A stretch of 62,639 nt of DNA from a virus: positions 1-62,639 of IMG/VR virus record IMGVR_UViG_3300006638_000002, one strand, 5' to 3'. How positions within the stretch are numbered: the stretch's first letter is position 1; every line of letters starts with the position of its first letter. The notes under the pieces are model-generated. The model was not told the DNA's origin, did no database searches, and was given only the letters and a program-made list of their open reading frames with translations. Position numbers and translations under genes: made by a program. Shown here in pieces: positions 1 through 62,639 of the stretch.

Positions 1-996
1 TTCGTTGACGGTGCCATTGCAACCATCGGCGCGGAAGCTGATGCGGCTTGGACGACCGGCAGTGGCACAGCCATTTCCATTCTCAAGAACATAGCCGGTG
101 GCATTGCCGGTTCGATCCCCGCCGGTACGAACGTCATCGGCCATGTGGTCGTCGATACCGCGCCGACGACGGCAGTCACCGGGGCGTTCTGGCAAGCCAC
201 ACAGCCGGTCAGCGGCACGTTTTGGCAGGCGACACAACCTGTAAGCCTTGCGACCGCTCCGACAACTCCGGTTACAGGCACATTCTGGCAGACGACCCAG
301 CCGGTCTCTGGAATATTTTGGCAGGCAACTCAACCGATCAGCGCGACGGCGCTTCCACTACCAACCGGAGCATCCACCTCAGCCAATCAGGCAGTAGTCA
401 CTACTTGGGCCGGTGGCACTCTTGGCGCGATGGCCAACTTTGGATCGTCGCCGGGTGCGGTGCTGGTGCCGGGTGCAAACGTAGATACGCCGACTTCCGG
501 CAATCTCTACGGCGCCCTTACTGCTGCCGTCCCCGCGCTAAACGCGACGGCGTACAGCACCAATTCCTACTCAAATGCGGCGACTAGCCCGGTCAATGCA
601 GATTTGCACGGCAACCTTTATGTGCATGGCATTGGCGGTGCAGGCGGCTACCCGGCTGGCGCTACGCCAATCACTGCGTCTGCTACCGGGACAACGGCGG
701 CGACAACGGCGACACTAACCGGAACAAGCGTGACGACTGTGTATATCTGTAGCCGTTCTGTTCGCGCGAACGCCACGGCTGCGGCAACAGTCACCGACAC
801 GGTGACTGGGGTTATAACCGGGACAATTTCATCGATCTTGTGGGTTGCACCATTGGCATCAGGGCTTGGTGTCGATGAAGAAATATATAACCCGTGCGTT
901 CCAGCCAGCGGCACAAATCAAGCCATCGCTGTCGTGTCTGGTGCCCCTGGCACGGGCGGCGTTGTATCTGTACACGCTACTGGATTCTATCAGTGA
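1..996 (+). CDS. Fibre/appendage protein, 3' part of a gene broken by the window edge
   Basis: Open from base 1 in frame 1 to a TGA at 994-996 (331 residues visible), so the true start lies before the window. Residues about 60-115 carry four copies of FWQxTQP(V/I)S, a motif common in phage tail and fibre proteins. The rest is Thr/Ala/Gly-rich with a beta-structured look, ending in a Cys-containing domain (VYICSRSV, YNPCVP). The leading stretch (DGAIATIGAEADAAW) also resembles a known phage virion domain. It is probably the C-terminal half of the protein that starts at 62146. The next gene overlaps it at GTGA. Role in host attachment is inferred. Confidence 0.7.
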   Translation, partial: FVDGAIATIGAEADAAWTTGSGTAISILKNIAGGIAGSIPAGTNVIGHVVVDTAPTTAVTGAFWQATQPVSGTFWQATQPVSLATAPTTPVTGTFWQTTQPVSGIFWQATQPISATALPLPTGASTSANQAVVTTWAGGTLGAMANFGSSPGAVLVPGANVDTPTSGNLYGALTAAVPALNATAYSTNSYSNAATSPVNADLHGNLYVHGIGGAGGYPAGATPITASATGTTAATTATLTGTSVTTVYICSRSVRANATAAATVTDTVTGVITGTISSILWVAPLASGLGVDEEIYNPCVPASGTNQAIAVVSGAPGTGGVVSVHATGFYQ

Positions 997-1748
997 GACG
1001 CCTAGCCTTTATCGCCCTGCTTGGCCTTCTCTGCTTCGGCAAAGCGGACGCCTTTTGGCAATCGCGAGGTTCTAATTACAATAGCAGTATTGCTTCAAGC
1101 GGCGGCGCTTCCGTTGCCTTCGATGCCAAAACAGTCACCACAACTTATGGCAGCACCTCTAGCATAACTAATTCGACCTTGACGGTGGGCTCCGGCTCAA
1201 ACCGTGCGCTTATCGCGGCTTTTGTCACATCAAACAACACCCCAACAGTTACATGTGTGTGGGATGCGGTTGGAGCCAATCAAAGTTTGACAGGGCTTAA
1301 AACTCAAGGGCAGGGAGTCGCAGCCAAAGGCGCCGTTATACTGCTGGGTCTTAGGAACCCAACCTCCGGAAATAAAATCTTAACTTGTACTCCGGGCGGC
1401 GCTTACAGTGACCAGTTTCTAAGTGCCGTTTCATTTACTGGGGTTTTGCAAACCAATGATGGCGTTGCATTCCCAAATAAGAGCGGGGCTACAAGCACGG
1501 GAACGGCCATCAGCAATGCTGTTACGAGTGCCGTTGGGAATATGACCGTAGATGTGGTTAGTTCAATTACACCTTACACCCTCAGCGCACCAACGCAGAC
1601 CGTGTTGTACACAAACAATGTTGCTGGATCGATAGTTAATGCTGGCAGCAGTTATGGAGCAGGAGCTTCAACCGTTACCTTTGCTTGGACTGCTTCAAAC
1701 GCAGCCGCAGTCTGGACAGATGCCGCAGTAGATATCGCCCACCAATGA
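993..1748 (+). CDS. Exported fibre-like protein with signal peptide
   Basis: GTG start at 993 overlaps the previous stop (GTGA). A longer reading exists, but this start puts a classical Sec signal peptide first: MRRLAFIALLGLLCFGKADA, followed by FWQ. The mature 230 residues are Ser/Thr/Gly-rich and predicted to be a beta-sandwich (repeated short strands, few charges). The fold resembles the protein at 26607 (vDNxGNxY-type and T-rich strands), which also has a signal peptide. No catalytic motif was recognised. It lies in the fibre cluster between large terminase and portal. A virion appendage or secreted adhesin are both possible. Confidence 0.65.
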   Translation: MRRLAFIALLGLLCFGKADAFWQSRGSNYNSSIASSGGASVAFDAKTVTTTYGSTSSITNSTLTVGSGSNRALIAAFVTSNNTPTVTCVWDAVGANQSLTGLKTQGQGVAAKGAVILLGLRNPTSGNKILTCTPGGAYSDQFLSAVSFTGVLQTNDGVAFPNKSGATSTGTAISNAVTSAVGNMTVDVVSSITPYTLSAPTQTVLYTNNVAGSIVNAGSSYGAGASTVTFAWTASNAAAVWTDAAVDIAHQ

Positions 1749-1903
1749 AGAAACTTTTTGTTACTCTCGGTTTATTGGCAGCCGTCTTGATCTGCGGTGG
1801 ATGGAATGTTCATGGCATACCGTCGCCATCGACTAGTTTCATGTTGGTAAACACCGGCTCATTTATGCTGGTGAATACCGGATCAAAATTGAAGGTGAAA
1901 TAA
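1745..1903 (+). CDS. 52-residue exported micro-protein with tandem SFMLVNTG repeat
   Basis: ATG at 1745 overlaps the previous stop (ATGA), and its stop shares one base with the next ATG (TAATG). Residues 1-24 form a hydrophobic signal peptide or anchor (MKKLFVTLGLLAAVLICGG). The short tail holds two exact copies of SFMLVNTG followed by SKLKVK. The translational coupling on both sides supports a real gene. Function is unknown; a small peptide that binds or coats a neighbouring fibre protein is only a guess. Confidence 0.6.
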   Translation: MKKLFVTLGLLAAVLICGGWNVHGIPSPSTSFMLVNTGSFMLVNTGSKLKVK

Positions 1904-3438
1904 TGCTCCGGTTCATGGTCGGATTGATCTTGCTTGGTCTTATATCGCAGGCCAATGCCGCAGACTCCACTATCGATGCTCTCGGTGCCGGTTCTGCGTT
2001 AACTGGCGCAGAGTCAGTTCCAATGTTTCAGTCCGCTAACCCTGCTGTCAAAACAACGACCAGAGCGATAGGAAATTTGGCCCCTGGAAACGGGACGGCT
2101 TACATCGACGCTACGCAGCAGTCCGGCGCGGATATGTGCGCCAAGATCGCGGCGGCACAAACCGCACTTATATCAGCGTCACCATTTGGGGGTGTTGTTG
2201 ATGCGCGTGGTTTTCTTGGCGTGCAGCCGTGTGCCGGTTCCATGTTTCTTGCTACCGGGAATGTTGCCGTAACAATTCTTCTTGGTGCCACTTCAATTCA
2301 AACGGCTGTACCTCAAAATCCTCCAACGCTGACTGCGCTGGTTGGCTCTATGCCATTCTCCATTAACGCTCCACTAATAGCGCAAGCCACTGGCACAGTC
2401 ATTCAGCCCGCAAATTCCAACTCTTTTGTAGTTACTAAAACGACCAGCGGATCGACCGCAAGCGGGGCCGTATTGCCGTTTACCGACACATCTGGAATTG
2501 TGGTCGGTGATTCCGTGACCGGAACGAATATAGTCGTACATACCACTGTTCAGTCCATTGTGACTAATACCAGCGTGACAGTGGGAGAGGCAATTTCCGG
2601 GACAGTGGGAAGTGGTGCAACGATCACTTTCACGCATCCAATCATGTCGATGGGCGCTGGTGCCGTTTCTACTGCCGTACAAATTTCCAACCTGAAAGTT
2701 TCGTGCCAGCAGCCTAACGCGAGTTATCTATCTGGCGGAATTGGCATTCAGAATGATTGGGCGCAGCAGCAGAGTTTTCTTTTCAACGTGGTTATCAGCG
2801 GATGCTTTACTAACTTCGATATAGAAACAACGAATGCTCAAAACGGCGGTCCTTACAACTATGTGACAATGGCGGCAGGTTATGCGTCCGTCAACGAAAC
2901 GTGCATGAAGATAGGAAATAATAATGGCAGCAACACAGTTCTCGAATCTGCGTTTCACGGCCTTTCCTGCGGCGGCGCAGGAGTAGGTTTTGAACCTACT
3001 GTCGGAATTTATCAGGATGCGTATTCATTGGGCATCTATGATTCCAATGTGGAAAATGTAGTTACAGGCATCGAGGTAGGACGATACAACTTCGTTCACG
3101 GTCTATTGCTATCGAATATAAATTGTGGTGGGCAGGCCCAAGCAATGACCACCTGTGTCGATATTTCTTCAAACAATTCCGTGGATGCCGCGACACTCAC
3201 GAACATTACCGGATACAGTGGGGACGGCGTTACTAACAGGCTTGTCGATCATATCAATTCAAGAACTATAACGACCCCGTGGGTCGCCTACTATATACTC
3301 GCGCACGACGGGTCGATCATAGCCGATGGTGCCACTAACCTTTTTACGACGCTTGGAACAACGGCGGGTGTTACTTGTGCGAGTGGCGTAACAGCCGCAA
3401 CTGTTACGGTATTGAAAGGCATTGTGACGCATTGCTAG
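1903..3438 (+). CDS. Exported beta-helix tailspike/fibre-like protein
   Basis: 511 residues starting with a Sec-type signal peptide (MLRFMVGLILLGLISQANA). After about residue 65 the chain has the start of a pectate-lyase-like fold (YIDATQQSGADMCAKI, a variant of the usual D-[DN]-[ST] rung) and then repeated short beta rungs with many Asn, Gly and Ser residues, typical of right-handed parallel beta-helices in phage tailspikes. No active-site residues could be assigned. The last gene of this fibre cluster before the portal module. Probably binds or degrades a surface polysaccharide. Confidence 0.65.
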   Translation: MLRFMVGLILLGLISQANAADSTIDALGAGSALTGAESVPMFQSANPAVKTTTRAIGNLAPGNGTAYIDATQQSGADMCAKIAAAQTALISASPFGGVVDARGFLGVQPCAGSMFLATGNVAVTILLGATSIQTAVPQNPPTLTALVGSMPFSINAPLIAQATGTVIQPANSNSFVVTKTTSGSTASGAVLPFTDTSGIVVGDSVTGTNIVVHTTVQSIVTNTSVTVGEAISGTVGSGATITFTHPIMSMGAGAVSTAVQISNLKVSCQQPNASYLSGGIGIQNDWAQQQSFLFNVVISGCFTNFDIETTNAQNGGPYNYVTMAAGYASVNETCMKIGNNNGSNTVLESAFHGLSCGGAGVGFEPTVGIYQDAYSLGIYDSNVENVVTGIEVGRYNFVHGLLLSNINCGGQAQAMTTCVDISSNNSVDAATLTNITGYSGDGVTNRLVDHINSRTITTPWVAYYILAHDGSIIADGATNLFTTLGTTAGVTCASGVTAATVTVLKGIVTHC

Positions 3439-11526: not shown

Positions 11527-11913
11527 ATGGTCAACCCGATTTCCGGTACTGACACCAGCGATTCCAATATGGCGCGTAAGGCGCAATATTTTGAAGGCTC
11601 GGTGGAGGACGCAATCACTGCCACGACCTCTGCCACGCAAGCCAATTCCTACCAACTGACGGCGCAGGTTAGTCGGCTCTCGACGGTGGCGAATGGAACC
11701 GATGGCGTGAAACTGCCGCCGGCTGTTGTCGGCATGGAATTGACCATCATCAATGATGGCGCGGCTGCAGCGCAGGTATTTGGCACGTCGCCTGACACTA
11801 TCGATGGGGTTGCGACAGCTACTGGCGTTGCTCTGACCAATGCCAAGCGGGCCAAGTTCTTCTGTGTGGTAGCTGGCAAGTGGCAGTCGATGCTCGGCGC
11901 TGTAAGCACCTGA
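11527..11913 (+). CDS. Small beta-rich virion-cassette protein
   Basis: 128 residues, ATG 11527 with AAAGGAGG upstream. The second half (GMELTIINDGAAAAQVFGTSPDTIDG, shown in parts) resembles a repeated beta-sandwich unit found in many phage proteins for stabilising trimeric fibres or head decoration; the 24266 protein ends with a similar unit (DMTGHANTNP, GAETIDG). No catalytic motif. Exact role unknown. Confidence 0.55.
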   Translation: MVNPISGTDTSDSNMARKAQYFEGSVEDAITATTSATQANSYQLTAQVSRLSTVANGTDGVKLPPAVVGMELTIINDGAAAAQVFGTSPDTIDGVATATGVALTNAKRAKFFCVVAGKWQSMLGAVST

Positions 11914-12630: not shown

Positions 12631-14367
12631 ATGGCAAAGCGCCCGACCATCCCAATCCCTGATTTCTCGCCTGATCTTTCCGACATCGGAACTGGCATCT
12701 CTCAGAATATCACCGGGGTCATTCCGCAGGCAGACGGCTATGGACCGTTCAAATCGCTTGTAGAGTTTACCACTGCATTGCCTGACAATTGCCGCGGGCA
12801 TTTCTTCGCGCGCAATCCAGATGGCTCCATTTCGGTATTCGCCGCGACTGCGACCGATCTTTATCTATTGAACAATACCGCATTCACATGGACGAAAGTC
12901 TCTAAAGGTGGCGGCTATTCGCAATTGCCGACGACTGACAACTGGCAGTTTGCCCAATTCAATCAGACGATCATTGCGGTGCAGATCAATACGGTGCCGC
13001 AGGCTTTCCTATTGGGATCGTCGAGCGTGTTTGCCGATCTAGGTGGTTCTCCACCGCAGGCAGGATTCGTAGCGGTCGTTAATTTCTTCCTCGTGCTCAC
13101 GGGCCTGATTTCAAACCCGAACCGGATTCAATGGTCTGATCTGGATGCTATTACGACTTGGACGGCTGGCGTTGGACAGTCGGATTTCCAAGACTTGCCG
13201 GATGGCGGCAATTGCAATGGTCTATCCGGTGGCGATGCTTATGGGGTGATTTTTCAGGATGAATCAATCCGAAGTTTGATCTATTCGCCTGGTTCCGGCG
13301 TTGTGTTTTCTATCATCCGGATATCGACGCAGGATTCATTATTCGCCAAATACACGGTTATCAATGCGGGACAGAATACGTTTTTCCTTTCCGCGCAGGG
13401 CTTCAAATATATCCCACCGGGAGGCGTCCCGACACCAATCGGCAAAGAGCGGGTGGATCGGTGGTTCTTTGCCCATGTGGACAGGTCAAATCTGCAGCTA
13501 GTGATCGGCGCCACCGATCCGAGCGCAACCCGTGTCTATTGGGCGTTCAAATCGACGGCTGGGGAAGGCGGGTTGTTTGACCAACTCCTTTGCTATGACT
13601 GGTCGATCGGGCAGAACGGGAAATGGAGCCTTATCCCGTGCAGCGGCCAATATCTTGCCGCATTGGCAAAGCCGGGGCTCACGCTGCATCAACTGGATGC
13701 GTTGGCTCCCGGCGCACTGGCGGTAACTGGCGCAGCCGATAATGGCGCAGGTCTAATTCGGTTAGCGTTAAACCAGGAATCAAACGCCTATTTCACCATC
13801 GTCGGGCAGAACTTTATCGTTGTGCAGAATGTCGAAGGTACAGTCGAGGCAAACGGTCGCTGGTCGTTTAATATCATCGATTCAACCCATATCGATCTGC
13901 TCAAGGACGAGGACGGCAATCCCTCGGCATTCGTTCATGCCTATACAAGTGGAGGTGCGATCGGCGGCTCGCTGGATGCGTTGCCATTTTCTCTCGATAG
14001 CTTCTCGCAAGCAGCAGCAGCGCGGCTTTCGGCTGTGTCGCCCAATGCTGCGGTTGGTTTCTTCGACGGCTCCAATATGGAAGCCATCATGGAAACGGAT
14101 GAGCAGGATTTGGAAGGCGATCTAGTCTTTATCGACGGCGTGCGCCCGATCACCGATGCATCAACGGCAATGATTTCGATCGGCGGACGTCTCAATGCGC
14201 AGGCTGCTGTCACCTATAGCGCGGAGTCGGCGCTCTCGGAGAATGGGGATTGCCCGCAGTTGGTAGAGACGCGATATGCGCGCGCCAAGCTGCGGATTCC
14301 GGCAGCCTCGGTGTGGACATATGCCCGTGCGGTTCAACCTAGCGCGCAGCCAGCGGGTGATACGTGA
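12631..14367 (+). CDS. Packaged-DNA stabilisation / tail hub protein, P22 gp10-like
   Basis: 578 residues, ATG at 12631. Signature features of the P22 gp10-like family: N-terminal GISQNITGVIPQADGYGPF, RNPDGSISVFAATATDLYLL, WQFAQFNQTIIAVQ, FVAVVNFFLVLTGL and PNRIQWSDLDAITTW, then DDES-like FQDESIRSLIY. The protein forms the tail hub below the adaptor and plugs the portal to hold packaged DNA; fibres attach to it. Long soluble beta-propeller-like chain. Next gene overlaps (GTGA). Confidence 0.8.
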   Translation: MAKRPTIPIPDFSPDLSDIGTGISQNITGVIPQADGYGPFKSLVEFTTALPDNCRGHFFARNPDGSISVFAATATDLYLLNNTAFTWTKVSKGGGYSQLPTTDNWQFAQFNQTIIAVQINTVPQAFLLGSSSVFADLGGSPPQAGFVAVVNFFLVLTGLISNPNRIQWSDLDAITTWTAGVGQSDFQDLPDGGNCNGLSGGDAYGVIFQDESIRSLIYSPGSGVVFSIIRISTQDSLFAKYTVINAGQNTFFLSAQGFKYIPPGGVPTPIGKERVDRWFFAHVDRSNLQLVIGATDPSATRVYWAFKSTAGEGGLFDQLLCYDWSIGQNGKWSLIPCSGQYLAALAKPGLTLHQLDALAPGALAVTGAADNGAGLIRLALNQESNAYFTIVGQNFIVVQNVEGTVEANGRWSFNIIDSTHIDLLKDEDGNPSAFVHAYTSGGAIGGSLDALPFSLDSFSQAAAARLSAVSPNAAVGFFDGSNMEAIMETDEQDLEGDLVFIDGVRPITDASTAMISIGGRLNAQAAVTYSAESALSENGDCPQLVETRYARAKLRIPAASVWTYARAVQPSAQPAGDT

Positions 14368-15797
14368 CAACTGGCACACAGATTGGCGTTCCTCTTAGTC
14401 CCGCCGAAACTAATACTTTCCGTATTGTCGCGGCGATCAGGGCGCTACAAAATCCAGCGAGCGCGCCGGTATTACAAACCACAATTTTCAATGTCTATCC
14501 CTCTGGTGGAGACGACACGGCCAAAATTCAAGCAGCAATCAACTCGGCCTCTGCGGCTGGACGTGGAACGGTGTTTCTACAGCCAGGGCTCTACAAAACA
14601 TCATCAGTTATAACACTTGCCGCTAATGTCGATGTGATTGGAGCAAGTCGTGACTCTGTTTTGATATTCCCGCAGACAAACTCACAGAAAGTCTTTTCTC
14701 TAATCTATAGCGTTCTGACCTATACAAATGTGGTTCTCTCTGATTTTACGATCTACACCGGAGCAACTACGGGCGTAGTTGGCATTGCGCAGACACTTAC
14801 GAGAAACGTCGCATTTCGTAATCTAGTTTTTCAGGGCACTGGTGCCGGGTCAATCGTTTTAGATCGAGTTCAGGCATTTTTAATGTCCGACATTCTGGTT
14901 GAAGGAAATCCCGGCCAGGGCGCAGGGGGCATCAAACTGTGGAGTTCAGACGATAGCAACTACGGCTCTTATGGCAGCATTACCAACTTGATTGGAGTCA
15001 ATATCGGTAACGGATTTCAGACTCCGTTTCTATACCTTCGCCGCATGGTTGGGGTGATGTGTACCAACATCAGTGCCAATGATCTTGTCATTGGCGGAAC
15101 GCCGCAGGATGGCATCATTATTGAAAACGACAGCCAAGGCAATTCATTCAGTAACATCTTGATTGGTGCGTCAAGCGTTGGTGTTCGGGTTCAGCAGGGG
15201 GCAGGCATAGTTGCATCTCCGACTTTTAATGTATTTTCAAACTTGGGAATAGATCAGCCTCATACGGCGTCAATTCTACATTCTTCCGGCGAATGGAATA
15301 GTTTTGATGGTGGGGCACTTACATCCTCAGGTGCTGTTACGACGATTACGGCCGTACAACTTACTGGCGGGTCTTCTTTACGAATTAACAATTTCACGGT
15401 CGTCGGGTTCAACGGAGTTGGGGGGCAAGCTATAGCTATTGGTGCAGGCGTCGGCAATTCCATCATTAGTGAAAATATCGTGAATGGCAACACTACCACC
15501 ATTACGGATAGCGGTACGACAAATACTGTAATTGACAATCTAGGCTACAACCCTGTCGGAGCCTCTGGGCCGACTACGGTTGGAACATCGCCTGCAACAA
15601 TTACGAATGGCGCTTCACCGGCCACTTACTATTTCCTGCAAAGCGCAACCAATACAGCAACTGTTGCCCAGGGGGGGCACACGCTGGGGACACTCAGCAG
15701 CACCACACTGCCGCTTACGGTCGATCTTGGGCCGAATGAAAGCGTGGTTGTGACTTGGATAACTACAGCGCCAACTTACACAGTTTCGGTTCATTAA
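14364..15797 (+). CDS. Beta-helix tailspike/fibre protein (pectate-lyase-like)
   Basis: 477 residues, GTG start overlapping the gp10-like stop. Residues about 42-70 show the canonical pectate-lyase superfamily entry (VYPSGGDDTAKIQAAINSAS, GRGTVFLQPGLY), followed by right-handed beta-helix rungs rich in Asn, Ile and Gly and a terminal beta-sandwich (PATYYFLQSATNT, LGPNESVVVTW). No signal peptide, unlike the other fibre genes of this window, so this is the best candidate for the cytoplasmically assembled tailspike. Probably binds or cleaves a surface glycan. Confidence 0.75.
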   Translation: MTTGTQIGVPLSPAETNTFRIVAAIRALQNPASAPVLQTTIFNVYPSGGDDTAKIQAAINSASAAGRGTVFLQPGLYKTSSVITLAANVDVIGASRDSVLIFPQTNSQKVFSLIYSVLTYTNVVLSDFTIYTGATTGVVGIAQTLTRNVAFRNLVFQGTGAGSIVLDRVQAFLMSDILVEGNPGQGAGGIKLWSSDDSNYGSYGSITNLIGVNIGNGFQTPFLYLRRMVGVMCTNISANDLVIGGTPQDGIIIENDSQGNSFSNILIGASSVGVRVQQGAGIVASPTFNVFSNLGIDQPHTASILHSSGEWNSFDGGALTSSGAVTTITAVQLTGGSSLRINNFTVVGFNGVGGQAIAIGAGVGNSIISENIVNGNTTTITDSGTTNTVIDNLGYNPVGASGPTTVGTSPATITNGASPATYYFLQSATNTATVAQGGHTLGTLSSTTLPLTVDLGPNESVVVTWITTAPTYTVSVH

Positions 15798-22429: not shown

Positions 22430-23185
22430 ATGGCTGACAGTTCTGTGGACATTCCCGCGATCATCCGTGAAAAAGCGGCGGCTTACGGCGTTGATCCAGA
22501 CACGCTTTTGCAAACGGCTAAAGTAGAAAGCAACCTCGACCCCACTAACGCTAATCCCGCGTCCTCTGCGAGGGGGTTATTCCAGCAAACCACCGGAAAC
22601 TGGAAGCAATATGGGAACGGCGGCGATCCGCTCGATCCAGTCGCTAGTGCTGATGCTGGCGCTCGGTTCATGGCGGCGAATCAGAAGCTACTCACGGCAT
22701 CCGGTATTCAGCCGACGCCTGGTGCGCTCTATCTGAGTCATTTCGCCGGGCCCGGGGGGGCGCTGAAGGTTCTCAAATCCGATCCGACTGCATCAGCGGC
22801 TGATATTCTCGGTCCCGCGGTGGTCAAGGCCAATCCATTCCTCGCCAATATGTCGGCAGGTGATTTGCAGTCATGGGCTGATCGCAAGATGAGCGGTTCG
22901 GCACCTGCTGGTGCGCCTGCTACCGCCGCGCCGACTCAAATGGCGTCCGCTGCTCCGGTCGCTGGCGGTGCTGCGCCTGACACATCGGCGGCTGCACCGA
23001 CCGAGCCAGCAATCAATCCAGACCTGATGGCGCAGTTGTCAGCCGTTCCTAAAATGCTGGCGCAATCGCAGCCGGATGTTTCGCAGCAGGCACCTCCACC
23101 GATGGCACCGATGTTCGATCCATCAGCACTCGCTCGCGCCCGCATACTGTCTCGTGTTATAGCTGGGCAGCCGATTACGGGATAG
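22430..23185 (+). CDS. Lytic transglycosylase-like virion protein
   Basis: 251 residues; start at ATG 22430 because AGGAG lies nine bases upstream. Residues about 8-105 match the lysozyme-like SLT fold: IIREKAAAYGVDPDTLLQTAKVES with the catalytic Glu in KVESNLDP, ASSARGLFQQTTGNW, and GALYLSHFAGPGGALKVL. The C-terminal half is Ala/Pro-rich. It would cut peptidoglycan glycan strands locally during DNA entry. It ends the ejection-protein set. Confidence 0.75.
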   Translation: MADSSVDIPAIIREKAAAYGVDPDTLLQTAKVESNLDPTNANPASSARGLFQQTTGNWKQYGNGGDPLDPVASADAGARFMAANQKLLTASGIQPTPGALYLSHFAGPGGALKVLKSDPTASAADILGPAVVKANPFLANMSAGDLQSWADRKMSGSAPAGAPATAAPTQMASAAPVAGGAAPDTSAAAPTEPAINPDLMAQLSAVPKMLAQSQPDVSQQAPPPMAPMFDPSALARARILSRVIAGQPITG

Positions 23186-23195: not shown

Positions 23196-24266
23196 ATGCT
23201 ACGTTCTCGACCTTGGTTGATGATTATCGCACTGCTCGCTCTGGCTATCCCAGCGCAAGCCGCGATGTGGCAGTGGTCCAAGACGCCATCCTCGAATGCT
23301 ACTGCGGATCCCAGCGTGAACTGGTCGATCGGCATGGCCCCGAGTGCAGTGGATGCATCGGGGCGTGCCATGATGGCCCGCACTGCGGAAAATCGCGACG
23401 ACATTTCGGGCCTGCTTTCTGCTGGTGGTACTGCGACTGCCTATACCGTCACGACTAATCAAGGCCTTCCCGCTACTCCGAATGACGGGCAACTGCTTGG
23501 ATTCACCCCGACCAATACGAATGGGGCTGGCGTTACTCTGTCGGCGGACAGCGGCGGTGTTTTTCCAATTCAAAGTTCGGCTGGTACGGGAATTTCCAGC
23601 GGTTCTTTGGTATCCGGCACGCCATATACGGTGAAGTTCTCGGCTTCGGCTTCTGCATGGGTCGTGCGGAATTTCTTCGGCAGCCCATTCACAGTGCCGA
23701 TCGGCGCGATGCTGCCTTATACCGGGACGACTTCGCCAAATTCCAATTTCATATTTCCTGCAGGCCAGTGCATCTCGCGCACGACTTATGCTGCCTATTT
23801 CGTGCAGGTTAGCACGACATATGGTGCTTGCGATGGCAGCACGACTTTCGGCGTTCCAGACATGCGCGGTCGCACGATCGCTGCGATTGATAACCTTGGC
23901 GGCACGGCGGCCAATCGACTAACGACAACTTATTTTGGCTCTGATCCGACTGTGGTTGGCGATGCTGGTGGTTCGCAAAGTCATACGTTGACGCAATCGG
24001 AGTTGAGCGTTTCGCTAGGCACCGCGACAAGCACCGTTACCGATCCTGGCCACTCGCACGTTGAAACCGCCGCTCCTGGTTCAGGAGGATTAAGTGGCGT
24101 TGCAGTGCAAAGTGGTGCATCAGCGCAGGCTGCTACGAATTACACAACGCTGGCCGGCACGACAGGGATTAGCGTTGCAACTACTATTACGAACGCTGGT
24201 GGTGGAAATCCTCACGCCATTGTGCCGCCGATGATCGTGCTCTCCTACATACTTCGGGTGCTCTGA
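23196..24266 (+). CDS. Tail-collar-domain fibre protein with signal peptide
   Basis: 356 residues. Starts with an apparent Sec signal (MLRSRPWLMIIALLALAIPA, then QAAMWQ). Middle is a beta-sandwich; from about residue 165 there is a phage tail collar domain: VPIGAMLPYTG, FGVPDMRGRTIAAIDN, GGSQSHTLTQSEL, DPGHSH, and the closing NPHAIVPPMIVLSYILRVL. Collar domains occur at the tips of phage fibres and bind metal through His pairs. An export signal on such a protein is unexpected. The next gene's ATG overlaps (TGATG). Confidence 0.75.
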   Translation: MLRSRPWLMIIALLALAIPAQAAMWQWSKTPSSNATADPSVNWSIGMAPSAVDASGRAMMARTAENRDDISGLLSAGGTATAYTVTTNQGLPATPNDGQLLGFTPTNTNGAGVTLSADSGGVFPIQSSAGTGISSGSLVSGTPYTVKFSASASAWVVRNFFGSPFTVPIGAMLPYTGTTSPNSNFIFPAGQCISRTTYAAYFVQVSTTYGACDGSTTFGVPDMRGRTIAAIDNLGGTAANRLTTTYFGSDPTVVGDAGGSQSHTLTQSELSVSLGTATSTVTDPGHSHVETAAPGSGGLSGVAVQSGASAQAATNYTTLAGTTGISVATTITNAGGGNPHAIVPPMIVLSYILRVL

Positions 24267-24700
24267 TGACCGTCCTCCGCACCAATCTTCACAATACCCG
24301 TGATTCTGCGCGGCAGATTCGGTTCGAGCCGACAGCGGGAATCACGGCGACAAATGTCCAGAAAGCCGTTGAACAAGGCGGCGGGGGTGGAGGTGGTGGC
24401 GGTCCAGTTGTTCCAACGAATATCTCCTTTTCAAACTCGCCATATACGGTGCTGTCGACCGATACTTTCCTCGCCGTCGATACGGCTGGCGGCGCAGTGG
24501 TTATTGATCTGGTAGCGGCTGCGTCTCGTTCGCTTCCCATAACCATCAAAGACATGACCGGACATGCAAACACTAATCCAATGAGCATCGTTCCGAATGG
24601 TGCAGAGACTATCGATGGCCTAAGCCCCTATTCGGTTGGCTCCGATTTTGGTGGCGTCCAACTCATTCCGCAGACTGGCGGCTATATGGTTGCCCCATGA
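24266..24700 (+). CDS. Fibre-associated protein with nine-glycine linker
   Basis: 144 residues, no signal peptide. N-terminal NLHNTRDSARQIRFEPTAGI with NVQKAVEQ, a short virion-attachment-like segment seen in many fibres (ITATNVQ). It is followed by nine consecutive glycines (24377-24403) and a compact beta domain with TFLAVDTAGGAVVIDL and DMTGHANTNPMSIVPNG. Probably a small spike or a linker that attaches one of the neighbouring fibres. Overlaps the next gene at ATGA. Confidence 0.65.
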   Translation: MTVLRTNLHNTRDSARQIRFEPTAGITATNVQKAVEQGGGGGGGGGPVVPTNISFSNSPYTVLSTDTFLAVDTAGGAVVIDLVAAASRSLPITIKDMTGHANTNPMSIVPNGAETIDGLSPYSVGSDFGGVQLIPQTGGYMVAP

Positions 24701-26610
24701 AGATTATCTTACGAATCCTTATCGCCTTTGGCCTTCTGCTCGGACAGGCCTACGCGCAACAGGGCGCGCAGTTGCCGGCAGGTACTGCGTTTGGCAATGC
24801 GGGATCATTGAGAGCGCCTGCTGTTCCTGTACCGTTTTCGACGATTGTCTCGATGGGAGGCGGCGGTGGAGGAGGTGGCGGCTCGTCGACAATAAATCGG
24901 CAGGATTTCTGTTTAGTCGGAATTACGGGCTGCCTTTATACATTTAGCTCCGGCGCGACATCGGTAACTCTGGCCACGACGCCAGCCAGCACGAATTCCG
25001 TCACTGTCTCGTTTAACGGGGTGACCCAAGCCGGAAACACTTGGTCGCTTTCCGGCAGCACGATAACATTCGCCGCTGCTGTACCATCTGATGTGAAGGT
25101 GATCGATGTCACGTCTCTGTCGGCCAGCATCTCGAGCGGCACGGTCACGAGCGTTGGCCTATCCGATGCTTCGGCTACACCGATCTACGCAATTACCAAT
25201 AGCCCAGTCACAAACTCTGGAAGCCTTACATTAACACTGACTACTAAAAGTCCGAACGTGGTGTTTGCTGGGCCATCGAGCGGAGGGGCGAATCAGCCAA
25301 GCTTTCGCTCTTTAGTTGGCGCTGATTTGCCTTTACCAGCCGCGGCCACATTGGGCGGCATTAAGAGCATTACGTCAGTCGCGTCTAACTGGATTTCAGA
25401 CATTGGAACAGACGGCACGCCGCATCAATCACAGCCGACATATACCGATCTTGCTGCTGGTGCGCCGACATCAACGGCGTCCGTCCTCGGGCTCGTAAAA
25501 CCTGATGCGACGACAATCACGATTTCTAGCGGAATATTGACCGCCGCTACGGCTACATCGTCGACATTGGGTGTTGTGAAGCCGGACAATTCGACAATTA
25601 CAATCTCGGCTGGCGTGATTAGCGCAGTGGGATCATCGCTCACGGTCGGATCCACAATTACCGGCTCATGCACGTCTGGCTATGTTGTCTATAGCAATTC
25701 CGGTGTTGTCGGCTGCGAATTGCTGGCTGGTGGCGGCAATGTCAGCAACTCTGGAACACCTACGATTGGACAGCTTGCAATCTGGACCAACGCGACGACC
25801 GTACAGGGTTTGACCGCGCTACCGGCCGCAAACTTTCCAGCCCTTACTGGCGATGTGACAACTGCTGGCGCCTCGCTCGCAACGACCGTTGCTAAGATCG
25901 ACGGATTCGCCATGTCGATCGGTGGGACGGTTACGACTGCGGGAAATGTTACCTTTGCAGGGGCATATCCATTCACCGGCACACTGACGGCCAGCACTAG
26001 CGTTACGTTCCCGACATCAGGGACACTGGTCAATTCCGGTGTGGCAACACTTAGCTCGCTAACCTCGGTTGGGGCGCTGGCGTCTGGATCGCTTACGACC
26101 GGCTTTACCGTCGTGCCTGCTGCAATAGGCGGCACTGGCGTTAACAACGGTAGCAATACGCTGACGCTTGGCGGCTCCATGACGACAACTGGCGCAGCAA
26201 CACCGACGTTTGCCTTCGGCTCAGGATCATGGACTTACACCTTTGCTGCGAGTGCAAATGATTCGGTCGCTCTGCTAGGCAAAGTCAGCCAAGCCTTCTC
26301 AGGTGGCGTTCACTTGACCTCGTATAATATCGGCACAGTGTCGAGCGGAACAACGACTATCGATTGCGGTAATGGTCCGAGCCAATATCTAACCAATGGT
26401 GGAGCATTCACGTTCGCAGCACCTAGCAGCGATAGCCAATGCCTTGTCATTGTTACGAACAACGGTAGCGCAGGAGCTATTACATTTTCTGGCTTTACGG
26501 CAGAGGCCAGTCACGGTGACGCTCTTGATACGACGAATGCCCATAAATTCACGGTGAGCGTATGGCGTGGTAATTCTACCGCCGACTACCGCGTGGTGGC
26601 GATGCAATGA
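24697..26610 (+). CDS. Large exported fibre protein with nine-glycine linker
   Basis: 637 residues; signal peptide MKIILRILIAFGLLLGQAYA, then nine glycines at 24856-24882. Long Ser/Thr/Gly-rich chain with repeating beta units (SSGTVTSVGLSD, STLGVVKPDNSTITIS and VLGLVKPDATTITISSG are near-repeats), typical of extended trimeric fibre shafts. C-terminal domain includes FTFAAPSSDSQCLVIVTN and AHKFTVSVWRGNSTADYRVV. Attachment or adhesin role is inferred. Next ATG overlaps the stop. Confidence 0.65.
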   Translation: MKIILRILIAFGLLLGQAYAQQGAQLPAGTAFGNAGSLRAPAVPVPFSTIVSMGGGGGGGGGSSTINRQDFCLVGITGCLYTFSSGATSVTLATTPASTNSVTVSFNGVTQAGNTWSLSGSTITFAAAVPSDVKVIDVTSLSASISSGTVTSVGLSDASATPIYAITNSPVTNSGSLTLTLTTKSPNVVFAGPSSGGANQPSFRSLVGADLPLPAAATLGGIKSITSVASNWISDIGTDGTPHQSQPTYTDLAAGAPTSTASVLGLVKPDATTITISSGILTAATATSSTLGVVKPDNSTITISAGVISAVGSSLTVGSTITGSCTSGYVVYSNSGVVGCELLAGGGNVSNSGTPTIGQLAIWTNATTVQGLTALPAANFPALTGDVTTAGASLATTVAKIDGFAMSIGGTVTTAGNVTFAGAYPFTGTLTASTSVTFPTSGTLVNSGVATLSSLTSVGALASGSLTTGFTVVPAAIGGTGVNNGSNTLTLGGSMTTTGAATPTFAFGSGSWTYTFAASANDSVALLGKVSQAFSGGVHLTSYNIGTVSSGTTTIDCGNGPSQYLTNGGAFTFAAPSSDSQCLVIVTNNGSAGAITFSGFTAEASHGDALDTTNAHKFTVSVWRGNSTADYRVVAMQ

Positions 26611-27386
26611 TGAAAAAGATTTTTGCATTTCTGATCTGTCTAGTGGCATTTACGTCGCCAGCGTGGGCGAGTATTACTTTCACTGCTGCGGGAACGCAGT
26701 CCAGCACATCGTCGAACACTCTTACATTAAATAGTTCGTCTACAAGTCCAGCAAGCATTCCGGCTGGCTCGGTCATCATATTATCCGTCACCGACTTATC
26801 TGGCAGCGGGACGCTTAGTTCCGTCGCAGACAACGCCGGAAACGTTTACTCGCTTGCCACGTCTAAAGCGCTGAATGGCTCATCCGCGACCGGAACAGGA
26901 TTTGTTTATATTAGCTACACCGGAAATGCGCTGAATCTTACAGCGAGCGGAACAATTACTTATACTCTTAATTTTTCTTCTGGCCCGCGTTCTGCTGTTG
27001 CCAGCGTCTCGTATGCAAGCGGAACGCTGCTAAGTTCGTCCGTATTAGACGCTACCGTTACGGCGACGGCGAGTGGGAACAGCGGGACCATTACGGTTGG
27101 CTCTGGCATCCCGGCAGTAGCTAATGAACTTCTGATCTGTGTATTCTCAAACAATAATGCTTCGACCTTTACGCAGGATAGCGGCAACGGTTGGGCTGCA
27201 CCGCCGACGAGAGCTATACAAGGAAGTTCTTCTCAGATCGCAGGCGGGAGTCAAGTAGCGAGCGCTGCTAAGACCTGCGTGCCGACATTGGGCACGAAAG
27301 GTTCGTGGGCCATTCAGACTATTGGGCTCAAGCCAGCAGTAACGATTGCTACGCCGTTTATCTTTCTTCCGGCTATCGTGCCATGA
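26607..27386 (+). CDS. Exported beta-sandwich protein
   Basis: 259 residues; ATG 26607, with a clean signal peptide (MMKKIFAFLICLVAFTSPAWA). The mature part, with VIILSVTDLSGSGTLSSVAD, NVYSLATSKALN and LLICVFSNNN, looks like the same beta-sandwich fold as the 993-1748 protein. The two may be diverged copies at the two fibre clusters. No catalytic residues recognised. Confidence 0.6.
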   Translation: MMKKIFAFLICLVAFTSPAWASITFTAAGTQSSTSSNTLTLNSSSTSPASIPAGSVIILSVTDLSGSGTLSSVADNAGNVYSLATSKALNGSSATGTGFVYISYTGNALNLTASGTITYTLNFSSGPRSAVASVSYASGTLLSSSVLDATVTATASGNSGTITVGSGIPAVANELLICVFSNNNASTFTQDSGNGWAAPPTRAIQGSSSQIAGGSQVASAAKTCVPTLGTKGSWAIQTIGLKPAVTIATPFIFLPAIVP

Positions 27387-27394
27387 GGATTCAT

Positions 27395-28297
27395 ATGCTC
27401 AGATTAGCAAAACTCACGGTGGCATTTTTGGCTCTGACTGGCATTGCTTTCGCGGCTCCGCCGACCACGACAACGGTGCCTAGCCAATTGCTGACGATGC
27501 CGCTGGATAGCATCCTCACGACGATGACGCCGACTACTGCTGGCGCCGGATTTAATCTTCCGCAGGGGGTGGCTCCAACGGTGCCGAATAATGGCGACGT
27601 TTGGACAACGAGTGCTGGTTTGTTTTTTAGAATTGCTGGCGTGACTGTCGGCCCGATCGGTGCAAGCGGAATAACGATCAACGCGACTCCGGTCACGGGG
27701 GCGACGGCTGGACAAGTTTTATTTAGCGATGGTTCTAAATTGCAGGCCTATTCGATCACGGGAACGGCTGGCAATGCTGTGATGTCAAATGCGCCGACGA
27801 TTGCTTCGCCAATATTCACTGGCACTGTTGCTGGCAACGCGACGATTCCTTTGTCAATACTAGTGCAGGGCACTGCCAATTCTATGATCGGCAACTGGTC
27901 GAACAGCACCGGGTATTTCCAAGCCAATACGATGCCGCCATGTCCTGATACGGGCGGCCATCTCAATTATGTTTCAGGGGCCGGTATTACCTGTGGAACT
28001 GGCGGTAGCTTTGGCGGTCGTGTTATCACTGCGGCAGGTGCGGTCACAATCACAACTTCCGATGATGTGGTAATCATCAAGAAATCATCGCCTGCGACGA
28101 CAACGGTAAACCTGCCATCTAGCCCGGTTAACTGGCAGAAAATCAGGATCAAGGACGGGTCGTGCAACTCAGGAACCTTTGCCATTACGATCACACCGGC
28201 GGCTGGCAATATCGATAATGCATCGACCTACGTCCTCAACCGCAACTGCCAATCGGTCACGCTGACCTATGACGGCGCTCAATGGGACACGCTGTAA
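27395..28297 (+). CDS. Exported fibre-like protein
   Basis: 300 residues. Start at ATG 27395, five bases after GAGGA; another ATG at 27383 would add four residues. Signal peptide MLRLAKLTVAFLALTGIAFA, then a Thr/Pro region, beta repeats (GATAGQVLFSDGSKLQAYSI is typical of phage fibres) and a C-terminal module TSDDVVIIKKSS, WQKIRIKDGSCNSGTFAITI. That last module is a known trimeric fibre tip-like unit. Stop shares a base with the next ATG. Confidence 0.65.
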   Translation: MLRLAKLTVAFLALTGIAFAAPPTTTTVPSQLLTMPLDSILTTMTPTTAGAGFNLPQGVAPTVPNNGDVWTTSAGLFFRIAGVTVGPIGASGITINATPVTGATAGQVLFSDGSKLQAYSITGTAGNAVMSNAPTIASPIFTGTVAGNATIPLSILVQGTANSMIGNWSNSTGYFQANTMPPCPDTGGHLNYVSGAGITCGTGGSFGGRVITAAGAVTITTSDDVVIIKKSSPATTTVNLPSSPVNWQKIRIKDGSCNSGTFAITITPAAGNIDNASTYVLNRNCQSVTLTYDGAQWDTL

Positions 28298-29562
28298 TGA
28301 CCAACCTGATTAAGCCGGACAAGAAACTGATCTCGTCCAGACGCAAATTTATCGCTGGCGCTGCCGCGGTGCTGGCAATGCCTGCGGTGTTTCGATCAGA
28401 TGAGGCGCGGGCGTCTTTCGTGCCGGGCCCCTACGAACTATGGATCGATCAACTCGGCGCCAAGGGCGACGGCAGCACGGATGACACCACGGCGTTTAGT
28501 CGCATTGCTGGCTATCTGCCGAATGGCGGCACGGTTCGCCTGTCCAATGGCAAGAATTATCTATCGTCGTCAGGATTCACTATTCCTGAAGGTGTGACGC
28601 TTGCGGGACCGTATGGCCAGATCGGAATGAACGGTCTGACCGCAACGCATCTCGCCAACTTCCGCAGCATTACGCTGGGCTCTGGTGCGACCATCACCAT
28701 GAATCAATCATCCACGCTAACGGGGTGTGCAATTCTTCCGCAGGGAATGACGTTCCCGCAGTCGAGTCCTTCTGCATGGACAGGCACTGCGGTTACAATC
28801 GCACAGAGCAATGCTTGTGTTGAAAATTCAATGATTGCTGGCTTCGGTCTTGGTATTCATTCGGAAGGCACGGTTTCTGTTGGCGTAGACCGGACATATG
28901 TTCGGCATTGCCAGATGGATAATGTTGCTGGGATTCAAGCGGGATATTGTTTTGATGTCTCACGCTTTGAGGACATTCATTGCTGGCCGTTCTTGACCTA
29001 TAACTCAGGAACTCTCACACGCACCGGAACGGCCTATTTAGTAGACAATCCGAATGATTGGGGCGAGTTCAACTATTGTTTCGCGTATGGCTACGATAAA
29101 GGTTTCAGCAATTCGGGGGCAAGCTCTCTCACTTATAACTTATGTGGCGCGGATACGTGCGCGACCTATGGATTTGTCCATTCCGGCACTCCAAGCGCCG
29201 ACGTAAGCTACATCGGATGCAATGCGGGCGGATGTGGGAATGGCATCTACATTTCTAGTCAGTATGCCGGTGATGCGATAGCAACTATCTCCGCCTGTCG
29301 CTTTTGGTCAAATACCAACGGAATAGCCGTTGATGCATCAAACCTTATCCCAATCACTGTGACAGGCGGTTCGAATCGCGATAATACCGCATGGGGAATT
29401 AATTGCGCTTCTAGCCATACTGGTTCCAAGATGACAGTGACCGGCGCTGTGTTCCAAGGCAATTCGAGCGGTGCCGCTGCCACATTAGCCACTGGCGTTT
29501 TGACCTCATGCGTACTTAGCGGTGAGACTGTCACCGGCTTTACGCAGTCGAACAATATCTAA
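28297..29562 (+). CDS. Beta-helix protein with twin-arginine (Tat) signal
   Basis: 421 residues; ATG 28297 (TAATG overlap). Residues 1-44 form a Tat signal: SSRRKFIAGAAAVLAMPAVF, then an Ala-x-Ala site (EARA). Residues about 50-85 give the pectate-lyase-superfamily entry (LWIDQLGAKGDGSTDDTTAF, PNGGTVRLSNGKNY) followed by right-handed beta-helix rungs with several Cys. Tat exports folded proteins, so this glycan-binding or glycan-degrading spike may fold in the cytoplasm before export. Catalytic residues not assigned. Confidence 0.7.
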   Translation: MTNLIKPDKKLISSRRKFIAGAAAVLAMPAVFRSDEARASFVPGPYELWIDQLGAKGDGSTDDTTAFSRIAGYLPNGGTVRLSNGKNYLSSSGFTIPEGVTLAGPYGQIGMNGLTATHLANFRSITLGSGATITMNQSSTLTGCAILPQGMTFPQSSPSAWTGTAVTIAQSNACVENSMIAGFGLGIHSEGTVSVGVDRTYVRHCQMDNVAGIQAGYCFDVSRFEDIHCWPFLTYNSGTLTRTGTAYLVDNPNDWGEFNYCFAYGYDKGFSNSGASSLTYNLCGADTCATYGFVHSGTPSADVSYIGCNAGGCGNGIYISSQYAGDAIATISACRFWSNTNGIAVDASNLIPITVTGGSNRDNTAWGINCASSHTGSKMTVTGAVFQGNSSGAAATLATGVLTSCVLSGETVTGFTQSNNI

Positions 29563-30089
29563 TGCAGGATAATCTTTCTAAGGCGCTCGACTTCATCACC
29601 ACTGACGAAGGTGAGGAATTGAATGTCAGCCCTGACGAACCGGGTGGCGCTTCCAAATGGGGAGTGACGCTCACCGATCTATCTGAAGTTCGCGGTAAGG
29701 TCTGCACGGTAGCCGATGTCGCTGCTCTCACGCAGGATGATGCGAGCCAGATATACGGCACGAGATTCGCTGTCCCTATTCATTTTGATGAATTGCCTGG
29801 CGGTGTCGATTATCGAATGCTCGATTGCGCCGTGACGCTCGGTGTCACGGGCTCCATCCAAGCCTTGCAGATGTGTCTCGCCATATGGCCGACGACAGGG
29901 ACCATGGATGCCATTACACTGGCGGCTGTGAAGGCTGCGACTCCATCGGTTCTCGTGCTGCAACTTGATGCCGCGTGGTTAACATGGAAACGCGGCCTGA
30001 CTCCGACTGGATTTTCCAAGTACGGTCATGGCTGGACGAATCGAATCCTCAAAGTTAGGAGCCGCATAGCGGCAATGGTGACGTCATGA
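29562..30089 (+). CDS. Endolysin, GH108-like N-acetylmuramidase
   Basis: 175 residues, ATG 29562 overlapping the previous stop. Begins ALDFITTDEGEELNVSPDEP then GGASKWGVTLTDLSE, the family's active-site region with a Glu after the first helix, followed by YGTRFAVPIHFDELPGGVDY and DCAVTLGVTGSIQALQ. C-terminal WTNRILKVR matches the usual end of this family. It would cut the glycan backbone of peptidoglycan at lysis. No signal peptide, so release would need a holin. Overlaps the next gene (ATGA). Confidence 0.8.
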   Translation: MQDNLSKALDFITTDEGEELNVSPDEPGGASKWGVTLTDLSEVRGKVCTVADVAALTQDDASQIYGTRFAVPIHFDELPGGVDYRMLDCAVTLGVTGSIQALQMCLAIWPTTGTMDAITLAAVKAATPSVLVLQLDAAWLTWKRGLTPTGFSKYGHGWTNRILKVRSRIAAMVTS

Positions 30090-30919: not shown

Positions 30920-31537
30920 ATGAAGTCGGCAAAGCTTTTACTAGCGGCCTTTCTGATTATTGCCCCGCTTTCGGTGTGCGCTCAGACGCCTCCGATTACC
31001 CTTACCCCAACGAACGTGACTACAACGACTCTTCCAGCAACGGGTCCTGCGGCTACTGCTGCACCTGCGGTCACGCAGAACACTGTTTCAACGACGGGCC
31101 CGGTTGAAAGCAAAACCACCATTAGCGTCGGTACATTGGCCGGCGAAGTCCTACAATGGCTCGCGGCTGCGTTTAGCGTTCCGATCGGCGGTTTGCTCAC
31201 GGCATGGCTCTATCGCCTATTTAAACTTGCTGGGGTGAATGTTGCGGATGGTCTGCGGACAAAATTGCAGGAGATCATCATCAACGGCTTGAACGCCGGT
31301 GCCAAGAATACGGCCGACCAGATGCAGGGCAGAGGCCAAGTCGAGATCAAGAATGCAGTGGTGGCTCAGGCCGTAGTTTATGCGCAGGCCCATGCCGCCG
31401 AAACGCTTAAGCAACTTGGGCTCGATCCGCAGAGCGGCGCCGCGGTGGAAGCAATCAAGGCTCGCATTGAAACCGCCATCAATGATCCGTCTGCTCCTAC
31501 GCCGCCAGTTCTAGACGGCCATCCAAAGGCTGCATGA
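30920..31537 (+). CDS. Membrane protein, holin candidate
   Basis: 205 residues, ATG 30920 with AAGGGGAAT upstream. Signal or first membrane segment (LLLAAFLIIAPLSVCA), a Thr/Pro linker, a second hydrophobic helix (LQWLAAAFSVPIGGLLTAWLY) and a helical C-terminus ending AHAAETLKQLGLDP, which resembles the tail of LLH-type holins. Immediate neighbours are endolysins. Holin is the most likely role, but pore formation cannot be judged from sequence alone. Confidence 0.5.
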   Translation: MKSAKLLLAAFLIIAPLSVCAQTPPITLTPTNVTTTTLPATGPAATAAPAVTQNTVSTTGPVESKTTISVGTLAGEVLQWLAAAFSVPIGGLLTAWLYRLFKLAGVNVADGLRTKLQEIIINGLNAGAKNTADQMQGRGQVEIKNAVVAQAVVYAQAHAAETLKQLGLDPQSGAAVEAIKARIETAINDPSAPTPPVLDGHPKAA

Positions 31538-31538
31538 G

Positions 31539-32306
31539 ATGAATTACAAAACTGGAAAACTACCGGCGCGGCCTGATGCTGTCGGTTTTAAGTTCGGCGC
31601 ATTTTTTAATGCTGAAAAGTTGCCGACGCCACCTGCCAAGTTCGGTCATTACGGGCTCGGCATAGGTCTTAATTTTGGAATGCTCGCAAATGACCAATAC
31701 GCAAATTGTGTATTCGCTGGTGCTGCTCACGAGCACATGATCTGGACCCATCGATCGGGAACCGGCCAGCCTGTCGCATTCAACGATGCGTGCGTACTGG
31801 CAGATTATGGCGCGGTGACAGGATTTGATCCGTCCAAGCCCGCCAGCGATCAGGGCACCGATATGGTTTATGCGGCATCCTACCGCCGCACGGTTGGCGT
31901 TGCCGATGCTCGTGGGGATCGTCATAAGATTGATTCCTACGTGGCGCTGCGTCCTGGTGATGCGGACCAACTCGCATTGGCGACCTATCTGACGGGCGCC
32001 ACGGCGGTCGGGATCCAATTTCCCGATAGCGCGGAGAATCAATTCGACAAGAGCGAACCGTGGGACGTTGTGCCTAATGCTAAGATAAATGGTGGCCACT
32101 ACGTCCCCTGTGTGGGACGTAACAGCGATGGCAATCTGCTTATCGTCACCTGGGGCCGTTTGCACGCGATGACGCCGAAGTTTTATCAGACCTACTGCGA
32201 TGAGGCGCTGGCGTATGTCTCCGTTGATCTAATGAAGGACGATCTCTCTCCGGATGGGTTTAATTCTGTTCAACTCAGTCGAGACTTAGCTGCACTCGCA
32301 AACTGA
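31539..32306 (+). CDS. Papain-like (C39/transglutaminase-type) protein in the lysis region
   Basis: 255 residues, ATG 31539. NFGMLANDQYANCVFAGAAHEHM places a Cys at a helix start, and later GGHYVPCVGRNSDGNLLIVTWG provides a His and downstream polar residue, the order found in papain-fold cysteine peptidases. YCDEALAYVSVDLM follows the same pattern. This gene type recurs in alphaproteobacterial phages near lysis genes. Whether it cleaves peptides, cell wall or nothing is unknown. Confidence 0.55.
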   Translation: MNYKTGKLPARPDAVGFKFGAFFNAEKLPTPPAKFGHYGLGIGLNFGMLANDQYANCVFAGAAHEHMIWTHRSGTGQPVAFNDACVLADYGAVTGFDPSKPASDQGTDMVYAASYRRTVGVADARGDRHKIDSYVALRPGDADQLALATYLTGATAVGIQFPDSAENQFDKSEPWDVVPNAKINGGHYVPCVGRNSDGNLLIVTWGRLHAMTPKFYQTYCDEALAYVSVDLMKDDLSPDGFNSVQLSRDLAALAN

Positions 32307-33031: not shown

Positions 33032-33045
33032 AATGGAGCGATGTG

Positions 33046-34157: not shown

Positions 34158-34346
34158 ATGCGCATTCACGTTCGGGCGAAATGTGAACGAGTACGGCGGA
34201 ACAACGGCATGGTCGAGGTGTTATTCACTCGCCGTCAAAGCGAAGAAGAGCATGTTCTGATTAACGTGGTCTGGAAAGATAAGGCCTTCGTTGAAGGCAA
34301 AGAATATCTGATTGAAATACAACCGGCTTTTCCGCATGAAAAATGA
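34158..34346 (+). CDS. 62-residue hypothetical protein
   Basis: ATG 34158 immediately after the previous stop. Beta-rich basic protein (MRIHVRAKCERVRRNNGMVE, then VLFTRRQSEEEHVLINVVW). No motif recognised; position implies co-translation with its neighbour. Confidence 0.5.
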   Translation: MRIHVRAKCERVRRNNGMVEVLFTRRQSEEEHVLINVVWKDKAFVEGKEYLIEIQPAFPHEK

Positions 34347-61900: not shown

Positions 61901-62149
61901 ATGGGCGTGAAAGCTTTGCGCGATGCATTCGATGCAGCGGCTGACGGTCGCCTCACATGTCAAACGGCATTCCTCGATTACGTCCGCCAAGATGGCACCG
62001 AATGGCAAAAGCTTACATTTTCTGGTATCGATTCCGCTGGGGCGGTATTTTCGGCTGAGTCTGCGTTGCTGCCGCCAAAAACTGACCTGACAGAGGCCGC
62101 CGGCGATGTAGCCCGCGAACTCATCAAACCGAAGGCTGCGACCCAATGA
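61901..62149 (+). CDS. 82-residue hypothetical protein
   Basis: ATG 61901. Helical start (KALRDAFDAAADGRLTCQTA), then LDYVRQDGTEWQKLTFSGID. Stop overlaps the next start (ATGA). Function unknown. Confidence 0.5.
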   Translation: MGVKALRDAFDAAADGRLTCQTAFLDYVRQDGTEWQKLTFSGIDSAGAVFSAESALLPPKTDLTEAAGDVARELIKPKAATQ

Positions 62150-62639
62150 GATATCTAGGACAAGCGATCGGTGCCGTTGCTCTATTGCTGGCCGTCGCTC
62201 TTGGATCTGCACCAACACACGCCGCAATAGTCGTCGCCAGTTGTCCGAATACTTTCGGCTCGCCGCTGCCTACTGGGAAAACCGGACAGGATATTCTCGT
62301 CGATATAAATGGAAATCTCTGCGCGGCGATCACGGCTAGCATTTCTGGCTTTACCGCTGCCTCAACCGGCACACCGATAACGGCCACAACTGGCGGTGCG
62401 GCGGGAACGTTGCCAACTGGAACGGTCGTCGTCGCAACCAACGTCGGTGCGACCAACGGCGCCTATTGCGCGCTTGGGGCTTCGGCAAATACATCATCTC
62501 AATATATCGCACCAAATGGCGGCTGGTTTGCCTTCACGGTCGGCGCGGCGACGCAGCTGACGTGCGCGACCTCGACCAGCACGACAACGGTCAACATGAC
62601 TGGCGGGGCGGGGCTCCCTACGGGCACTGGCGGTGGCGG
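62146..62639 (+). CDS. Exported fibre-like protein, 5' part, cut by the window end
   Basis: ATG 62146 (ATGA). 164 visible codons: a Sec signal peptide (MRYLGQAIGAVALLLAVALG, then SAPTHA), a beta-rich Thr/Ala/Gly domain with three Cys, and a final Gly-rich stretch (LPTGTGGG) at the window's last bases. It very likely continues into the gene that enters at base 1, but joining them directly gives the wrong frame, so 3n+1 bases are missing. Confidence 0.7.
   Translation, partial: MRYLGQAIGAVALLLAVALGSAPTHAAIVVASCPNTFGSPLPTGKTGQDILVDINGNLCAAITASISGFTAASTGTPITATTGGAAGTLPTGTVVVATNVGATNGAYCALGASANTSSQYIAPNGGWFAFTVGAATQLTCATSTSTTTVNMTGGAGLPTGTGGG

Follow-up and report, generated by a model that had tools for sequence, protein, structure and literature searches.

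Predicted export of tail fibre proteins, and their possible docking after lysis, in a family of podovirus-like phages

The known fibres of tailed phages are produced and put together in the cytoplasm, and the question raised by the present locus is why a run of fibre-like genes in a tailed phage should nearly all begin with export signals. The window, which is the whole IMG/VR virus record of 62,639 bases (IMGVR_UViG_3300006638_000002), contains a podovirus-type structural block. Its terminase (60302-61861) and portal (4156-6510) enclose fibre cluster A, which spans the record ends, and are followed by a scaffold-like gene (6847-8004), the major capsid gene (8463-9575, phrog_334), a structural protein gene (12631, phrog_3287), ejection-type proteins (16229-22274), a transglycosylase-like gene (22430-23185), fibre cluster B (23196-29562), and a GH108 endolysin (29562-30089), after which comes an M15-like peptidase. 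A GcrA gene (PF07750, 5e-26) points to a probable alphaproteobacterial host with two membranes. No close DNA relative of the record was found in the isolated-phage collection, and the best isolated matches to its portal, in Microcystis, Paracoccus and Rhizobium phages, are about 40% identical. We compared it with nine relatives of 51-70 kb (portal 51-84% identical), and the group appears, judging by its sequences, to constitute a family of podovirus-like phages from soil with genomes in this size range. Two contigs, L002 and L008 (3300025862_000009 and _000032), contain stretches 100% identical to the record's proteins and apparently represent a single phage, that of the record, assembled in two pieces.

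Cluster B, with all of its genes on the + strand, opens with a collar-domain tail fibre (B1, 23196..24266) composed of a Sec signal (MLRSRPWLMIIALLALAIPAQA, followed by A; cleavage predicted after residue 22; score 5.42), a docking domain, a shaft and a collar, with cysteines 170 and 190 in the mature chain. Its product matches the Collar profile PF07484 (5.9e-12; 45.8 bits versus a cut-off of 24) and phrog_8763 (4e-30), phage tail fibres were the leading matches in a fold search, and its structure model is of moderate quality (pLDDT 52.9); the alignment and the gene order in relatives reveal a conserved N-terminal virion-docking domain and a position in the structural operon. The 144-aa product of B2 (24266..24700) is fibre-like, with a weak T4 gp9/10-like match, and lacks both a signal and cysteines. 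It is followed by three fibre-like genes with strong Sec signals, namely B3 (24697..26610, phrog_27494; MKIILRILIAFGLLLGQAYA, followed by Q; 6 Cys in the mature chain), B4 (26607..27386; MMKKIFAFLICLVAFTSPAWA, followed by S; 2 Cys) and B5 (27383..28297; MRIHMLRLAKLTVAFLALTGIAFA, followed by A; 4 Cys), the last with a weak C-terminal match to the depolymerase/fibre beta-sandwich PF25692. B6 (28297..29562; 13 Cys), possibly pectate-lyase-like, carries the Tat motif SRRKFIAG and then a hydrophobic stretch (SRRKFIAGAAAVLAMPAVF); its match to PF12708 is below the cut-off (22.3 versus 27), and its single-sequence structure model is poor (pLDDT 37.6).

Cluster A, also on the + strand, begins with A1 (62146..62639), which has a strong Sec signal and is the 5′ portion of a gene split across the contig ends, and continues with the 3′ portion of that gene, A2 (1..996), 52% identical to G006 17125, a single signal-bearing gene. 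Once joined, the two frames show no direct match, so that some bases are probably missing, at a G+C-rich repeat (GGCGGTGGCGG). Next are A3 (993..1748; strong Sec signal, GTG start, 2 Cys), the 52-aa A4 (1745..1903) with a weaker signal-like N-terminus, and the fibre-like A5 (1903..3438; strong Sec signal, 10 Cys). Since most fibre genes overlap the adjacent ones and a clear Shine-Dalgarno site is missing from them, translational coupling was assumed.

Scoring relied on a rule of our own making (n-region charge, a 9-residue h-region and the -3/-1 rule) rather than on SignalP, and the Sec-type fibre proteins display n-h-c signals with a -3/-1 cleavage site. Fibre-like proteins totalled seven strong Sec signals, one weak (1745) and one Tat (28297). 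The four Sec signals (23196, 24697, 26607 and 27383) and the Tat signal of the original prediction were borne out by the scorer, with 24266 as a signal-less exception inside the interval, and the contrasting beta-helix spike-like gene (14364..15797, + strand; 1 Cys) indeed has no signal, as had been claimed. The Sec signals attributed to cluster A turned out to be strong on 62146, 993 and 1903, but only weak (3.66) on 1745. Scoring had been set beforehand as the check, and the fibre signals score high, at levels that shuffled sequences, internal stretches and antisense ORFs seldom or never attain: for each strong signal, at most 1.5% of shuffles of residues 2-40 come up to the observed score (0% in four cases out of seven), internal windows of the fibre proteins all stay below 4.3, and only 3/92 antisense ORFs attain that value from any start. 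In five annotated reference podoviruses and prophages, signal matches were found in 1 of 203 genes, versus 54 of 602 in the record and its nine relatives (Fisher p = 2.6e-6), the relatives' genes having been called with a simple script that may have misplaced some starts. Together with the internal windows and the reference phages, the shuffles rule out hydrophobic starts arising by chance.

The collar fibre is the gene in which the history of the signal can be followed. Its N-terminal domain occurs on viral and bacterial contigs, in 162 distinct sequences altogether, of which 149 start with Met at the docking domain and have no signal. The 13 others, all divergent, are preceded by a signal of 22-31 residues with an A-x-A-type site, ending at the start of the docking domain. 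These 13 signals differ widely in sequence and keep their three-part form, as expected under selection for export; wrong start codons are ruled out for the collar fibre, since the diverged forms keep one signal layout. A quick tree requires three changes in signal state, at least two of them forced by well-supported branches, and places the signal-bearing L044 deep among signal-less fibres. Identity between fibres with and without a signal is 0.59 in the docking domain, 0.34 in the shaft, 0.41 in the collar and 0.29 in the tip, and the signal-bearing fibre keeps the gene position and the C-terminal tip of the signal-less ones. The placement of the signal in 23196 appears to be a departure in route and not in homology.

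In every one of the 13 collar fibres with a signal, the mature chain contains 2, 4 or 6 cysteines. Cys170 is present in 12 of the 13 signal forms and in 0/92 signal-less ones, and its partner column (190/191) is occupied in the same 12 forms and in 0/90 signal-less ones. The 2/44 pair is confined to L016 and L044, the 69/98 pair to L018 and L024, and the 225/234-236 pair is present in 10 signal forms; these further pairs accompany a signal without exception, and among signal forms no cysteine of a pair occurs without its partner. A recognised pair is found in 13/13 tree rows with a signal versus 0/91 without, although the tree contains only two well-supported independent contrasts, too few for a phylogenetic p-value from the collar fibre alone. 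A family-wide parity test is independent of that tree: Cys-containing mature signal-bearing proteins of the record and its nine relatives have an even count in 45 of 46 cases, versus 164 even and 202 odd for signal-less proteins (Fisher p 1.3e-13). With one draw per family, the even:odd ratio is still 20:1 with a signal (21 families), versus about 104:127 without (median p 4e-6), which rules out an artefact of homology. Odd counts accompany a signal in the gene at 47845 in G002 (3) and a B3-like protein in L218 (9), and also in 28297 with its Tat motif (13), where they are perhaps expected, because Tat substrates fold before export. It is difficult to see why cysteine pairs should appear and disappear in step with the signal if the mature chains did not fold in an oxidising compartment, and we take export and disulfide formation to be well supported. 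Even, coupled cysteines would be the mark of periplasmic disulfide folding, and the fibre proteins are very probably exported and disulfide-bonded.

The predicted export trait is common to the whole 51-70 kb family, and in the relatives it includes genes directly after the major capsid gene. The relatives' members of this post-capsid gene family bear signals, seven of the eight having two cysteines and one having none; the copy in the record (11527..11913, + strand) presents the reverse contrast, with a single cysteine and no signal. In G004 and G007, the collar fibres are devoid of both signals and cysteine pairs, while the neighbouring fibres are signal-bearing, and B2 is signal-less in 7/7 genomes where it was found, with no cysteines in six of them. 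These contrasts indicate sorting gene by gene. Two adjacent signal-bearing proteins in G005 (33747-39556), of about 950 aa and 12 Cys each, have the same mature start, AFGIFQTYAP; the first of them yielded no Pfam or PHROG match. The A5-like and B3-like N-terminal domains, taken from G005 and G006 as queries, had no tblastn match among isolated phages.

The portals of family-like prophages reach 52% identity in a Bradyrhizobium-family genome and 43-45% in others, and no signals were seen in the structural genes of three related prophages that we inspected; a class-wide genome sample yielded nothing under the strict limit. The family records, some of which may be fragments, yielded no phage integrase. 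With signal-less related prophages and no integrase, the export trait looks like that of a probably virulent lineage. A signal-like start (MVLFILAFLLSASPASA) was also seen in the Microcystis phage Mae-JY35 (L010, 19373-20605), in a protein downstream of the fibre genes which we take, from its general look, to resemble a subtilisin-type protease.

Signals occur outside the fibre clusters as well (30920 and 35162 in the lysis region, and a lipobox at 32680), and the signal-bearing class thus includes non-fibre proteins. The 35162-35848 product, with a Sec signal, 8 Cys and a weak M15 peptidase match, is possibly an exported peptidoglycan peptidase of the lysis region; its homologue in G001 (50613) has a signal and 6 Cys. 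The exported or membrane proteins encoded at 30920-31537 (phrog_17576), 32680-32991 (lipobox LLVGGC) and 33043-33468 (N-terminal transmembrane segment) are possibly the holin and spanins, and a conserved phrog_19005 protein (31539-32306; 60% identical in G001) adjoins the lysis genes.

What, then, would become of an exported fibre? Since the docking domain is its best conserved part, and its position and tip are kept, we argue that the mature collar fibre most likely still joins the tail, and most simply when lysis mixes the compartments; fibres and spikes can be added to finished particles in extracts, as in T4 and P22. In the course of events that we infer, actual export and cleavage would be followed by the formation of disulfides and, at lysis or later, by docking. 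The late operon would make fibre and appendage proteins as pre-proteins, which Sec (or Tat, for one spike) would take to the periplasm of the alphaproteobacterial host; signal peptidase would cleave right at the start of the virion-docking domain, and folding and disulfide bonding of the mature chains would take place in that compartment, with head, portal, ejection and adaptor proteins remaining in the cytoplasm. The lysis cassette would then open the membranes, allowing mature fibres to dock onto waiting tails. We lean towards this course of events, from export and cleavage to docking upon lysis, as the somewhat more probable one, although it leaves unexplained how a fibre trimer would reach the tail. 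The broader proposition, namely a two-compartment assembly of tailed phages in which cytoplasmic heads and tails meet periplasm-matured appendages only at lysis, sorted gene by gene and gained more than once on existing fibres, we consider evenly poised.

The original prediction had interpreted the signals as export, which is well supported, the paired cysteines being stronger evidence than the signals alone; of the options it listed, fibres added outside the membrane fit best, given the docking N-terminus and the retained collar and tip, and purely secreted adhesins or glycan-degrading factors are the less probable option. It also expected virion fibres to be unprocessed, which is a poor test, since fibres docking after export would be processed and yet present in the virion.

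The main rival to docking after lysis is that the exported proteins have a non-virion role, coating the cell, blocking superinfection or masking receptors, or trimming envelope or extracellular glycans before or after lysis. All of the export evidence fits this role equally, there are many such genes per family genome, the Tat-bearing B6 is possibly pectate-lyase-like, and a secreted, host-encoded enzyme with a tailspike fold exists in Pantoea stewartii (WceF, PMC7949094). However, the collar fibre has retained its docking domain together with the locus and tip of the signal-less fibres, and a 23196-type gene is the only collar fibre at its locus among the relatives listed, so that its departure from the virion would leave those phages without that fibre; a role in lysogenic conversion is unlikely, as the family records yielded no integrase. 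We regard a non-virion role as possible, but rather unlikely.

Alternatively, virion fibres could be placed via a membrane stage, in which tails or whole particles would encounter the exported fibres on the inner membrane ahead of lysis, so that attachment of the fibres would depend on membrane contact. The sequence evidence is shared with the docking model, and the operon mixes exported proteins with the cytoplasmic B2, which could be an adaptor; nevertheless, neither a membrane-embedded adaptor nor a gene dedicated to export was recognised, contact with the inner membrane in the course of assembly is not known for tailed phages, and such a stage seems quite improbable. Finally, Sec-like N-termini can in principle be inert, and might stay uncleaved as anchors or coiled packing segments inside the virion, which we consider very improbable, as the canonical three-part signals have AxA-type sites at the domain start and diverge in sequence but not in form, and the coupled, even cysteines make sense only in an oxidising compartment.

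If fibres can indeed be exported first, adsorption proteins could be matured by the host signal peptidase and disulfide machinery, free fibres in the infected-cell periplasm might mask receptors as well, and lysis would govern the attachment of fibres. Tailed phages are the textbook case of cytoplasmic assembly, from which exported fibres would depart, and two-compartment assembly, should docking after export be demonstrated, would merit a stronger label than fibre variant. The combination of a signal with even, coupled cysteines offers a sequence-only test for such phages in metagenomes, and dropping "secreted" genes from phage structural annotation would discard fibres.

We know of no tailed phage with fibres that are Sec substrates, and full-text searches of the open literature turned up no account of such tail fibres bearing signal peptides. 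Filamentous phages of the M13 type do have virion coat proteins with Sec signals, which wait at the membrane; those phages are unrelated and extruded without lysis, whereas the record, with its genes for capsid, portal and lysis, represents a tailed phage. Accounts of JG068 and of rumen phages mention signal peptides only in general terms. The Pantoea WceF, a tailspike-like biofilm glycan enzyme acting outside the cell, is similar by description (PMC7949094), but is a bacterial gene outside any phage fibre operon. Signal-less homologues from Bradyrhizobium and Bartonella genomes and from the phages Rhizobium RHph_Y1_10, Paracoccus KLEP18-1 and Microcystis Mae-JY35 share the docking domain and the podovirus gene order with 23196, but start with Met at the docking domain and have neither a signal nor paired cysteines. 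With collar-domain tail fibres in general (PF07484/phrog_8763; T4 gp12, the T4 gp37 tip and the cyanophage A-1(L) fibre), B1 shares the collar fold, the tip, the N-terminal docking domain and the position after the ejection genes, and differs in the Sec signal before the docking domain and in the gained cysteine pairs. In this comparison, the fibres are ordinary by homology, but apparently not by route.
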